Source of the DNA: Promicromonospora sp. MEB111 | Lineage (GTDB): Bacteria; Actinomycetota; Actinomycetes; Actinomycetales; Cellulomonadaceae | Direction: 5' to 3' | DNA length: 64,000 nucleotides | Assembly: GCF_030209445.1 (NCBI RefSeq) | Contig: NZ_JARVSD010000014.1 | Location: 248,001-312,000 of the forward strand | Part shown: one piece after another, positions 2,969-63,064 of the stretch | How the letters are laid out: each line of letters starts with the position of its first letter | Position numbering within the stretch: position 1 is the stretch's first letter | The notes under the pieces: model-generated | The model's database searches: none | Told to the model about the DNA's origin: nothing | Seen by the model: the letters and a program-made list of their open reading frames with translations, nothing else | Position numbers and translations under genes: made by a program

Positions 2969-3012
2969 GTGTCAGACGCTCAGGTCACTATGGTCACCTG
3001 AGCGTCTGACAC
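2969..3012. repeat. Palindromic element, TGTCAGACG family, copy 1
   Basis: Perfect 17-bp arms (GTGTCAGACGCTCAGGT at 2969-2985 and its complement at 2996-3012) around a 10-base loop. The same outer arm occurs at 7947 and 19364, and in reduced form at 43983. It sits downstream of the minus-strand ohr gene and its repeat array, and upstream of alkC. A terminator-like hairpin of a dispersed family is likely. Confidence 0.8.
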
Positions 3013-3030
3013 TGCCGTCAAGGTGCGGGC

Positions 3031-3308
3031 CTACGCTCTGCTCTTTTGTCGCTCGAGCCTGCGGTTCCGCTGCGGGCAGGTGCCTCGTTCCTCGGCCCCT
3101 ACCCTTCGCTGCACCTCCGGCTCAAGCTCTGCTTGTCGGTCGCCGGAGCCTGCGGTTCCGCTGCGGGCAGGTGCCTCGTTCCTCGGCCCCTACCCTTCGC
3201 TGCACCTCCGGCTCAAGCTCTGCTTGTCGGTCGCCGGAGCCTGCGGTTTCGCTGCGGGCAGGTGCCTCGTTCCTCGGCCCCTACCCTTCGCTGCACCTCC
3301 GGCTCAAG
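3031..3308. repeat. Tandem array A: three copies of a 91-bp repeat
   Basis: Three near-identical units begin (GAGCCTGCGG) at 3055, 3146 and 3237, a period of exactly 91 bp. Each carries GCAGGTGCCTCGTTCCTCGG, then GCTGCACCTCCGGCTC. Complementary pieces (GAGCC with GGCTC, GGTGC with GCACC) let each unit fold. Units 1 and 2 match closely; unit 3 has a C-to-T change. The last unit ends in GGCTCA, whose TCA is the stop codon of the minus-strand ohr gene at 3304-3306. Related array B lies at 34331-34581. Confidence 0.9.
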
Positions 3309-3732
3309 CGACGGTCGCGTCGACCGTGACCTCGATGTTGCCGCGGGTCGCGTTCGAGTACGGGCAGACCGCGTGCGCGGCCTCGACCAGCCCGTCGGCG
3401 GTGGCCTGGTCCACGCCGGAGAGCTCGACGTGCAGCGCGGCGCTCAGGTTGAACGCACCGCCGTCCCCGGGGTGGATGCTCACCTCGGCGACCACGGCGG
3501 AGTCGCTGACCGTGACCTTCTTCGCGGCGGCGACGGCCTTGAGCGCGCTGTGGAAGCACGAGGCCCAGCCCGCGGCGAACAGCTGCTCGGGGTTGGTGGC
3601 GCCGCCCGGGCCGCCCATGTCGGCGGGGATCGCCAGCTTGAGGTCCAGCAGGCCGTCGTCGCTCACCGCGCGGCCTCCCGCGCGGCCGTCGCCGGTGGAC
3701 GTCGCGACGGCGGTGTAGATGCTGTCAGCCAT
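3304..3732 (-). CDS. ohr: Organic hydroperoxide resistance protein (OsmC/Ohr family)
   Basis: 142 residues, the normal Ohr length. The two redox cysteines are in ASCFHS (Cys59) and AVCPYS (Cys123), with the NPEQLFAAGWASCF signature and Arg17/Arg21 in the N-terminal region. Ohr reduces organic hydroperoxides using dihydrolipoyl- or thiol-derived electrons in the cytoplasm. The start is the ATG at 3732. A 24-bp palindrome 45 bp upstream shares a 10-mer with the promoter of the neighbouring TetR gene, so regulation by that TetR rather than a MarR-type OhrR is likely. The stop codon is supplied by the edge of repeat array A. Confidence 0.92.
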   Translation of the reverse strand: MADSIYTAVATSTGDGRAGGRAVSDDGLLDLKLAIPADMGGPGGATNPEQLFAAGWASCFHSALKAVAAAKKVTVSDSAVVAEVSIHPGDGGAFNLSAALHVELSGVDQATADGLVEAAHAVCPYSNATRGNIEVTVDATVA

Positions 3733-34291: not shown

Positions 34292-34330
34292 GGCTCTGCG
34301 TCCAGCCCACACTCTGTCTGTCGGACGACT

Positions 34331-34581
34331 GAGCCTGCAGTTCCGCTCCGGGCGGGTGCCTCGTTCCTCGGCCCCCACCCTGCGCTGCACCTCCGGCGCA
34401 CGCTCTGCTTGTCTGTCGCCTGAGCCTGCGGTTCCGCTCCGGGCGGGTGCCTCGTTCCTCGGCCCCCACCCTGCGCTGCACCTCCGGCTCAGTCGTGTTT
34501 GTGGGACGACTGAGCCTGCGGTTCCGCTCCGGGCGGGTGCCTCGTTCCTCGGCTCCCACCCTGCGCTGCACCTCCGGCTCA
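34331..34581. repeat. Tandem array B: three copies of a ~91-bp repeat
   Basis: Units start (GAGCCTGC) at 34331, 34422 and 34512, giving periods of 91 and 90. Each has TTCCGCTCCGGGCGGGTGCC, then TCGTTCCTCGG and GCGCTGCACCTCCGG. It is the same element as array A at 3031-3308, with a few fixed differences (CTCCGGGCGG here, CTGCGGGCAG there). As in array A, the last unit ends in GGCTCA, and that TCA (34579-34581) is the stop codon of the adjoining minus-strand gene, here MarR. Confidence 0.9.
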
Positions 34582-35082
34582 GTCGTCGAACTGCGCGGTG
34601 ACCGTGCGCAGCAGCGCAGCCAGCTGCGGGCGCTCCGCGGGGGACAGGGCGGTCAGCACCTTGGCCTCGATGTCGAGCAGGTCGCTCATCGCGGCGTCGA
34701 CCCGCGCCAGCCCCTCGTCGGTGAGCTCGACCAGCACACCGCGGCGGTCGTCCGGGGAGCGGTGCCGCTTGACGAACCCGCGCGACTCCAGCCGGTCGAT
34801 CCGGTTGGTCATGGTGCCGCTCGTGACCAGCGTCTGGGTGACGAGCGTGCCCGGCGACAGGCGATAGGGCTCGCCGGCGCGGCGCAGCGCCGAGAGCACG
34901 TCGAACTCCCAGGTCTCCAGGCTGTGCCGCGCGAACGCCGTGCGACGGGCGAGGTCGAGGTGCCGGGCCAGCCGGGACACCCGGCTGAACACCGTGAGGG
35001 GCTCGAGCTCGAGGTCCGGGCGCACGTGGTGCCACGCGGCGACGATGCGGTCGACCTCGTCGGCGGGACCTGTGTGCTCCAT
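34579..35082 (-). CDS. MarR family transcriptional regulator
   Basis: 167 residues. The winged helix is in WEFDVLSALRRAGEPYRLSP and LVTSGTMTNRIDRLESRGFV, with the wing RSPDDRRGVLVELTDEG. It is divergent from a maleylacetate reductase gene. A palindrome TCTCGATATCAAGA (35102-35115) lies 20 bp upstream, a usual distance for autoregulation. Control of aromatic breakdown is inferred from the neighbour. The stop codon is provided by repeat array B. Confidence 0.9.
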   Translation of the reverse strand: MEHTGPADEVDRIVAAWHHVRPDLELEPLTVFSRVSRLARHLDLARRTAFARHSLETWEFDVLSALRRAGEPYRLSPGTLVTQTLVTSGTMTNRIDRLESRGFVKRHRSPDDRRGVLVELTDEGLARVDAAMSDLLDIEAKVLTALSPAERPQLAALLRTVTAQFDD

Positions 35083-62055: not shown

Positions 62056-62917
62056 GGCGGTCCGCGGCACGCTCCCTGGTACGACGCTCCCGGGCGTCGT
62101 CGACCACCACGTGCACCTGGGCCTGGTCGACCGGGCGCTGCTGGCCGACGGCCCGGTCGTCGAGGTGCACGACCTGGGCTGGGACCCGCGCGAGGTGGCC
62201 GCCTGGGCGGCCGCACCGCCGTCGGGCCTCCGGGTCCGGTACGCCGGGCCGTTCCACACCGCGCCCGGCGGGTACCCGACCGGCCGCTCGTGGGCGCCGG
62301 ACGCCGCGGTGCGGCACGTCGTCTCACCGGATCACGCGACGGCGGCGGTGGCCGACGTCGTCGCCGCGGGCGGCTTCGCGGTCAAGGTAGCCCTCCACGC
62401 GGGCATGTCCCTGCTGCCCGACGACGTGCTGCGCGCGCTCGTCGACGCGGCGCACGCGGCGGGGCTGCCGGTCCTCGTCCACGCCGAGGGCGCCGGCCAG
62501 GCGGAGCGGGCGATCGACTCGGGTGCGGACACGCTGGTGCACGTGCCGTGGACGGAGCCGCTGCCGGCGGACGTGATCGCCCGCGCTGTCCACATGACCT
62601 GGATCTCCACCCTCGCGATCCACGACGGACCCGGTGGCTCGGCCGGTCTGGAGCTGGCGCTCGACAACGCGCGGCGGTTCGTCGCGGCGGGCGGGCGGCT
62701 CGTGTACGGCACGGACCTGGGCAACGGGCCTGCGCCGGCCGGGGTGAACGAGCGCGAGATCGAGCTGCTCGGCACGGTGCTCACGGGGGAGGCGCTGCGC
62801 CGTGCCGTCCTCGGCCCGCTCGATGCGGCTCCCGCGTTGACCGCCGCGCTGCCCATGCCGGACACGGCGGCGGATCTGATCGCCTGGCTCCGCGCGTCCA
62901 CCCGACTACCCCGCTGA
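62048..62917 (+). CDS. Amidohydrolase family protein linked to kynA
   Basis: 289 residues. Metal-site motifs of imidazolonepropionase-like amidohydrolases: [56 protein letters not shown] and [12 protein letters not shown]. The coupling to kynA suggests a step in Trp/kynurenine breakdown, perhaps formamide hydrolysis of N-formylkynurenine; this is inferred. Its stop codon lies inside the first hairpin of a triple hairpin block. Confidence 0.83.
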
Positions 62918-63058
62918 CTCGCCGCACGGGGTGCGACGAGTCAGCGGGTTGGTCGGACCACCCCACTGACTCGGCCGACGGGATGTGGCGAGTCAGTGGG
63001 GTAGTCCGACCATCTCGCTGACTCGGCCGACGGGCGATGGCGAGTCAGCGAGATGGTC
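62910..63058. repeat. Three consecutive long hairpins between convergent genes
   Basis: Hairpin A: CCCGCTGACTCG (62910) with CGACGAGTCAGCGGG (to 62948). Hairpin B: outer GGTCGGAC/GTCCGACC (62951-63011) and inner CCCCACTGACTCG with CGAGTCAGTGGGG (62961-63001). Hairpin C: 18-bp perfect arms GACCATCTCGCTGACTCG (63008-63025) and complement (63041-63058). All share the core CTGACTCG...CGAGTCAG. They fill the gap between the stops of the amidohydrolase and the beta-helix gene and include the former stop codon. Confidence 0.85.
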
Positions 63059-63064
63059 GGTGAG

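Follow-up and report, generated by a model that had tools for sequence, protein, structure and literature searches.

A small repeat whose hairpin encloses the stop codon of its host gene and carries a far arm fitted to that gene

Two tandem arrays at the ends of ohr and a marR-type gene

The window analysed here, a 64,000-nucleotide stretch of the genome of Promicromonospora sp. MEB111, contains two tandem arrays that each begin at the stop codon of a gene (Table 1). The host gene of array 1 is ohr, with a product that matches Pfam OsmC (8e-18) and the NCBIfam Ohr family TIGR03561 (3e-49), and array 2 follows a gene of the MarR family. A preliminary description of this DNA had proposed a three-unit array with a 91-bp period, an array edge that coincides with the ohr stop codon, and a similar arrangement near 34331-34581 beside an unrelated gene. 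All three proposals were borne out by Tandem Repeats Finder and by the matches of the two gene products. Units of array 1 and array 2 are 93-94% identical over a 69-nt core and the two arrays therefore belong to one family. When the RNA folding of the arrays was compared with that of shuffled sequences, the minus strand, which is the sense strand for both host genes, folded better (z -2.5 and -5.0) than the plus strand (z -1.7 and -3.3) in both cases. The right arm of unit 1 in array 1 pairs with the end of ohr at five of five positions, one of the pairs being G.U.

Table 1 Positions of the two arrays, their units and their host genes in the window.
Feature	Position	Strand	Detail and evidence
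Array 1	3048-3309		Period 91, 2.9 copies, 98% matches; Tandem Repeats Finder
Array 1 unit 3 hairpin	3054..3124	-	Sequence, covariance model
Array 1 unit 2 hairpin	3145..3215	-	Sequence, covariance model
Array 1 unit 1 gene-specific right arm	3231..3235	-	Pairing profile
Array 1 unit 1 hairpin	3236..3306	-	Starts with TGA, the ohr stop; sequence, covariance model, fold
ohr coding sequence, host of array 1	3304..3732	-	Start codon inferred; stop TGA is TCA at 3304-3306
Final 5 nt of ohr	3307..3311	-	Left arm of the extended stem; pairing profile
Array 2	34301-34586		Period 90/91, about 3 copies; Tandem Repeats Finder
Array 2 unit 3 hairpin	34330..34400	-	TGA decayed to TGC; sequence, covariance model
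Array 2 unit 2 hairpin	34421..34491	-	Sequence, covariance model
Array 2 unit 1 gene-specific right arm	34506..34510	-	Perfect complement of 34582-34586
Array 2 unit 1 hairpin	34511..34581	-	Starts with the stop codon of the marR-type gene; sequence, covariance model, fold
marR-type coding sequence, host of array 2	34579..35082	-	Start inferred; stop at 34579-34581 (TCA); Pfam MarR_2, 5e-13
Final 5 nt of the marR-type gene	34582..34586	-	Left arm; pairing profile, fold

Structure of the hairpin

The unit of about 90 bp consists of a 71-nt hairpin (TGAGCC..GGCTCA), a 5-nt right arm, a short spacer, a segment that resembles the gene end and a further stop codon. The hairpin is interrupted by three GNA/GNA internal loops and capped by a GAGGAACGA loop. 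Among the 167 distinct near-full units from all collected loci, 145 are exactly 71 nt long; in these, GNA lies opposite GNA at the three internal loops in 137, 136 and 135 units, respectively, 112 have GAGGAACGA as the loop, and 144 conserve a T.G pair. With this invariant T.G column left out, the remaining pairs include 66 G.U and 15 A.C mispairs, an excess of G.U which suggests that the sense strand is the one that folds. In an alignment of 37 first units (those next to the gene), 14 pairs were altered on both sides, the covariation was 0.204 compared with 0.085 in shuffles (none of 500 shuffles reached the observed value), and RNAalifold recovered the same fold unprompted.

The 111 first units that have 150 nt or more of upstream sequence all begin with TGA, and in 102 of them this TGA ends a coding-like frame, as judged by third-position GC; the other nine were excluded from later counts (n = 102). 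The base that precedes the TGA is C in 89 of these 102 loci. The stop codon is not always TGA, a point that the preliminary description had proposed to check; TAA and TAG are found in diverged relatives. In the mRNA an 11-bp basal stem takes in the right arm, the stop codon and the two codons before it. The GAGCC/GGCTC pairing described previously does exist, but it is only the inner part of this stem, and what had been overlooked is that the stem extends 5 bp into the coding sequence and that the far arm complements the end of its own gene.

The 51 downstream units follow at a spacing of 88-92 nt. Counting full units only, the 116 first units represent 73 single, 36 double and seven triple loci, and the proposed clustering in threes is not the general pattern of the family. 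A reading frame of at least 20 codons closes inside the unit in 59 of the 167 units of the window's family, as a raw count.

The arm is fitted to the host gene

Gene end and arm pair at positions -1 to -5 in 99, 89, 96, 99 and 89% of the 102 loci, respectively, compared with 80, 41, 94, 77 and 55% with shuffled partners, and at -6 and beyond the pairing is at the level of the shuffles. Statistically, the arm thus tracks the end of its host gene. Five-base arms with perfect Watson-Crick pairing are present at 71 of the 102 loci. Thirteen units are non-Watson-Crick at -2, ten of which have the commonest arms, GGCGA or GGCGG; the rare arm types occur once each and match their own gene. The best reading of this fit between gene and arm is, tentatively, selection on RNA.

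In a comparison of orthologous host genes comprising 180 cells, 19 cells have a changed gene end, and of these 16 are Watson-Crick paired through a matching change in the arm, three form G.U and none has lost the pair; the 19 cells stem from nine gene groups, are not independent and may in some cases represent separate insertions. In a further 21 of the 180 cells the gene base is the same and the arm base differs, with at least one member unpaired, and in the downstream units of arrays the match to the unit's own arm is weaker (92, 69, 92, 63 and 61%); both observations count against the reading as an RNA hairpin.

Mutational bias alone might also have produced arms of this kind, if template switching at a quasi-palindrome kept rewriting the far arm from the gene end, with neither selection nor function involved. 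The near-perfect arms at 71 loci, and a gene end that recurs close by in both inverted and direct orientation, are what such a process would leave. It should, however, also have repaired the GNA/GNA loops and the T.G pair, which are kept in 135-137 and 144 of the 145 units, respectively, and we consider this explanation improbable.

Gene-specific stems are also found in another family, f17, which we take to be perhaps the Microbacteriaceae. Here a gene-specific stem of at least 6 is present at 12 of 15 loci, compared with 6.8% of foreign pairs, in a test that used simple stop calls, was given 17 loci (two without a called stop), includes two loci with doubtful reading frames (L406 and L413) and has six of its 15 loci at one shared gene end. 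Six f17 genomes (L407, L409, L412, L414, L416 and L420) carry the hairpin at a shared gene end, PHPHEFE[ML]YYD[IL], which according to Pfam is that of a glutamine synthetase (L420); the site is possibly a hot spot or an old insertion. The stem test fails in the Cellulomonas-like genus g20, where 2 of 15 loci have such a stem compared with 10.2% of foreign pairs, and this counts against the RNA-hairpin reading. The same genus is enriched in direct gene-end copies (11 of 15 compared with 25%). The gene for inositol-phosphate synthase is present in 76 of 80 genomes, and in the 30 g20-type genomes inspected by eye its end is a mixture of filled and empty sites; in the filled sites the bases 3' of the TGA co-vary with the opposite arm.

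Predicted folds and gene context

Folding of 91 of the 102 loci predicted a mean pairing probability of 0.73 for the stop codon within the main stem (at least 0.5 in 68 loci). With everything up to +12 masked, as it would be by a ribosome, the right arm was predicted to pair with the distal segment with a mean of 0.68 (65 loci). Own arms were predicted to fold better than foreign arms in 80 of the 91 loci (-52.0 compared with -47.5 kcal/mol). Together the models predict a switch between two alternative stems.

Based on simple gene calls, the next gene is convergent at 46 of 92 loci and co-directional at 44 (two have no call), compared with 237 and 353 of 590 in the background. A co-directional gene starts no more than 60 nt away at 13 of the 92 loci, and copies sit between nuoK-type, rpmA and FtsX-permease genes and their co-directional successors. 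Strong hairpins directly 3' of stop codons, together with the share of convergent neighbours, could indicate an intrinsic transcription terminator repeated 3' of genes; the co-directional arrangements speak against this, as does the lack of a U tract after the hairpin (all 167 units have at most two consecutive T in the 20 nt that follow the stem), and scans found no terminator-like site on an element, the one other site being at 3025-3041. The intrinsic terminator was rejected as highly improbable.

Insertion into existing gene ends

Genes that carry the element differ at their ends from 508 element-free genes that end in TGA, with G at -3 in 98% (52% in element-free genes), C at -4 in 83% (45%) and T at -5 in 57% (19%); at -2 the base preference is close to background. 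Nine genes were compared with their orthologous ends in five to 12 congeners each. The ends are mostly identical with and without the element and are thus older than the element; these empty orthologous sites support the earlier suggestion that it arrives at stop codons. The sigma-factor-like gene g066 ends in CTCGAC in 10 of 12 congeners, all of them element-free, before TAG or TGA, and the copy in the genome of the window ends in CTCGAC-TGA and retains a TAG after the array. At the rho-like end, one congener (G006) is cleanly empty and the window's genome repeats the gene end and stop codon after the element. At the few sites with clean empty relatives, the element abuts the final sense codon of a gene end that was already there, and the TGA comes from the element. 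Inspection of the rho-like and NeuB-type ends by eye revealed shortened remnants of the element. Since copies are decayed or absent in congeners, none of them seems to be indispensable, which counts against the RNA-hairpin reading.

The distal segment is similar to the gene end, with an identity at -2 of 89% in 44 arrays and 67% in 48 single units (36 and 30% when shuffled) among the 92 of 102 loci with a usable distal stop, and the identity runs up to 10 nt. Many Promicromonospora copies have a rather constant AGAGCC in place of this segment. The sharp 5-bp edge of the pairing and the direct copy of the gene end would also fit copying at insertion, which counts against the RNA-hairpin reading.

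Such copying would be expected of a purely selfish DNA element of the REP or MITE kind, whose enzyme would recognise the single-stranded hairpin with its flanking 5 nt and whose arms would result from target choice by pairing or from target copying at insertion, with no role for RNA. Consistent with this are the strong target motif at -3 to -5, the gene end repeated directly on the far side, the decay of copies in congeners and the finding that 10 of the 13 units that are non-Watson-Crick at -2 carry GGCGA or GGCGG, as would a standard donor arm. A fixed guide is, however, insufficient, because -2 is near background as a target and yet matched in 89%, and because rare arms, each found once, fit their own gene. 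The excess of G.U over A.C and the absence of a Y1 transposase from the 37 family genomes searched also argue against a selfish DNA element, an explanation we regard as possible and rather unlikely.

Distribution

Searches with the 69-nt core revealed 40 matches (E <= 0.01) in the 6.23-Mb Promicromonospora genome that contains the window, and matches in 20 of 59 genomes, its own included, although the match in one of the 20 (G035) is not a copy when inspected by eye. The covariance model gave 44 matches in the same genome, the weakest being doubtful, and matched 87 of 200 genomes of the window's family, its own included, with up to 20 candidates scored per genome. One congener, G007, gave no match in either the 59-genome core search or the 200-genome model search. 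With units placed after gene ends, these counts substantiate the earlier view of a dispersed element that is tied to stop codons and resembles REP, only longer. An exact pattern scan of named genomes found at least 107 stretches, and the same pattern had no matches in viral contigs. The genera among the matches listed are Promicromonospora, Antribacter, Isoptericola, Myceligenerans, Cellulosimicrobium and Xylanimicrobium, with one Arthrobacter.

The host genes are ordinary and include those for Ohr, MarR, aconitase, Rho-like, NeuB, FtsX, sigma factor, MerR, ribosomal L27 and NADH dehydrogenase chain 4L proteins, and at one locus (L093) a protein with a UTRA domain (Pfam). Among more distant relatives the hosts include glutamine synthetase, inositol-phosphate synthase, RNase J and RNA polymerase genes.

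Beyond the family, matches were obtained in 21 of 396 genomes at the level of the order, four of them outside the window's family, and in 7 of 394 at the level of the class, five of them outside the order; two of these five (L455 and L456) have no clear stop-codon arrangement. In f17, 26 of 149 genomes had matches. Distant relatives were observed in large actinobacterial genomes of genus g195 (L454, L457 and L458), two at the end of the same thiolase-like gene and one as an array with 99-bp spacing.

Copies of the Arthrobacter type (L125 and L354) lie at an rplK-like end with TAA or TAG as the stop codon, and their stem reaches further into the gene. A conserved cis-regulator of rplK was considered and rejected: among the 61 Micrococcaceae-like genomes searched, one match spans the hairpin and the rest end near the stop codon, so the rplK copies look like insertions. 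Two f17 genomes (L404 and L419) also have an rplK-like end with a related hairpin.

Relationship to known repeats

The element is a small repeat of a REP/MIRU-like kind from a group of soil actinobacteria, and its unusual feature is a hairpin that encloses the stop codon and has a far arm fitted to the host gene. A search of Rfam 15 at the gathering score found only tRNA in the window and nothing on the arrays, and at E <= 10 the region 2980-3360 gave one chance-level hit, outside array 1. No published description of such an element was found in a literature search, for which most subscription papers were out of reach.

The GTAG and CGTC super-families of REP are dispersed and clustered hairpins of 20-40 bp downstream of genes, with an unpaired GTAG or CGTC tag, and the accessible part of the survey that describes them names no actinobacterial example (PMC3733652). 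Like REP, the element is a dispersed palindromic repeat outside genes that follows gene ends, with 44 model matches in the genome of the window; unlike REP, it is 71 nt long and has GNA/GNA loops and a host-gene-specific arm. A RAYT-like transposase, which the preliminary description had considered, does not accompany the element, as Y1/RAYT (PF01797) is absent from all 37 family genomes searched (its own and 36 relatives) and is found in 2 of 59 genomes overall, both from other families. GTAG and CGTC occur just outside the stem in 5 and 22 of the 167 units, respectively. Membership of the RAYT-REP system is ruled out by the lack of PF01797 in the family and by a tag that is mostly absent.

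MIRU units are of similar size and are arranged in tandem. In the accessible part of their description (PMC12548453), MIRU insert where genes meet, on the overlap of a start and a stop codon. The element shares with MIRU, so described, the tandem units and insertion where genes meet; it differs in that most copies (89 of 102) follow C, and so have no start-stop overlap, and in that its copies may work without a reading frame, the two being set apart by the description of MIRU and not by sequence. In the window's family the start-stop overlap with -4 nt spacing is not the rule, A preceding the TGA in 5 of 102 loci. One f17 genome (G326) has 10 of its 14 loci on ATGA or GTGA, and at eight of the 14 the frame that begins at the overlapping start is open over more than 200 codons or extends beyond the end of the stretch, in one case entering, as judged by eye, a galactokinase-like gene. 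This is the arrangement given for MIRU in the accessible part of PMC12548453, and the branch is linked to the window's family by weak model scores (31-38 bits). Related units at L470-L483, L421 and L423 lie on start-stop overlaps with a frame that continues into the next gene, and form a MIRU-like branch.

ERIC-type intergenic repeats, which are mobile RNA hairpins roughly 100 bp long that lie close to the ends of genes, share this outline with the element; we know of no host-gene-specific arm in ERIC-type repeats, and the distinction is drawn from description and not from sequence. Integron attC sites are imperfect hairpins of 60-140 nt, and like the element they form direct arrays of such hairpins. 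An attC identity was rejected, as the core motifs GTTRRRY and RYYYAAC occur together in none of the 167 units.

Possible function

Based on sequence comparisons and predicted folds, we tentatively favour, at somewhat less than an even chance, a dispersing RNA hairpin that is anchored at stop codons and may act at translation termination or at the mRNA 3' end. The element would work as RNA. A ribosome positioned over the gene end would block the stem and leave the right arm free to pair with the gene-end copy further downstream; after release, the stem would close over the stop codon and clamp the 3' end of the reading frame. The clamp may protect from 3'-to-5' decay, or it may modulate both termination and coupling with the gene that follows. 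The element would disperse by some mechanism that prefers TCGNC before the stop codon, and tandem copies could arise by recombination between the repeated TGAGCC junctions.

A bolder proposal, which we consider unlikely, is that of an actinobacteria-wide superfamily of mobile stop-codon elements in which MIRU would be one branch. Each copy would be a translation-gated RNA switch, where the last codons and stop codon compete with their downstream copy for one tailored arm and the release of the ribosome flips the fold of the 3' UTR.

Small dispersed repeats are usually treated as generic hairpins, and here the copies enclose stop codons and match, base for base, the final codons of different genes. 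With roughly a hundred gene ends, they amount to a natural experiment that asks whether selection acts on mRNA structure at stop codons, and they offer a clue to the origin of MIRU-like elements.

Other repeats in the window

A long, perfect-looking palindrome is located at 2970-3011, between ohr and the next gene. A similar palindrome is found 3' of the ohr end in the congeners G003, G006 and G009, with or without the repeat, which suggests that ohr has a terminator or operator of its own. A further tandem array, at 62904-63060, has three copies with a period of 52 and an inverted repeat inside each.
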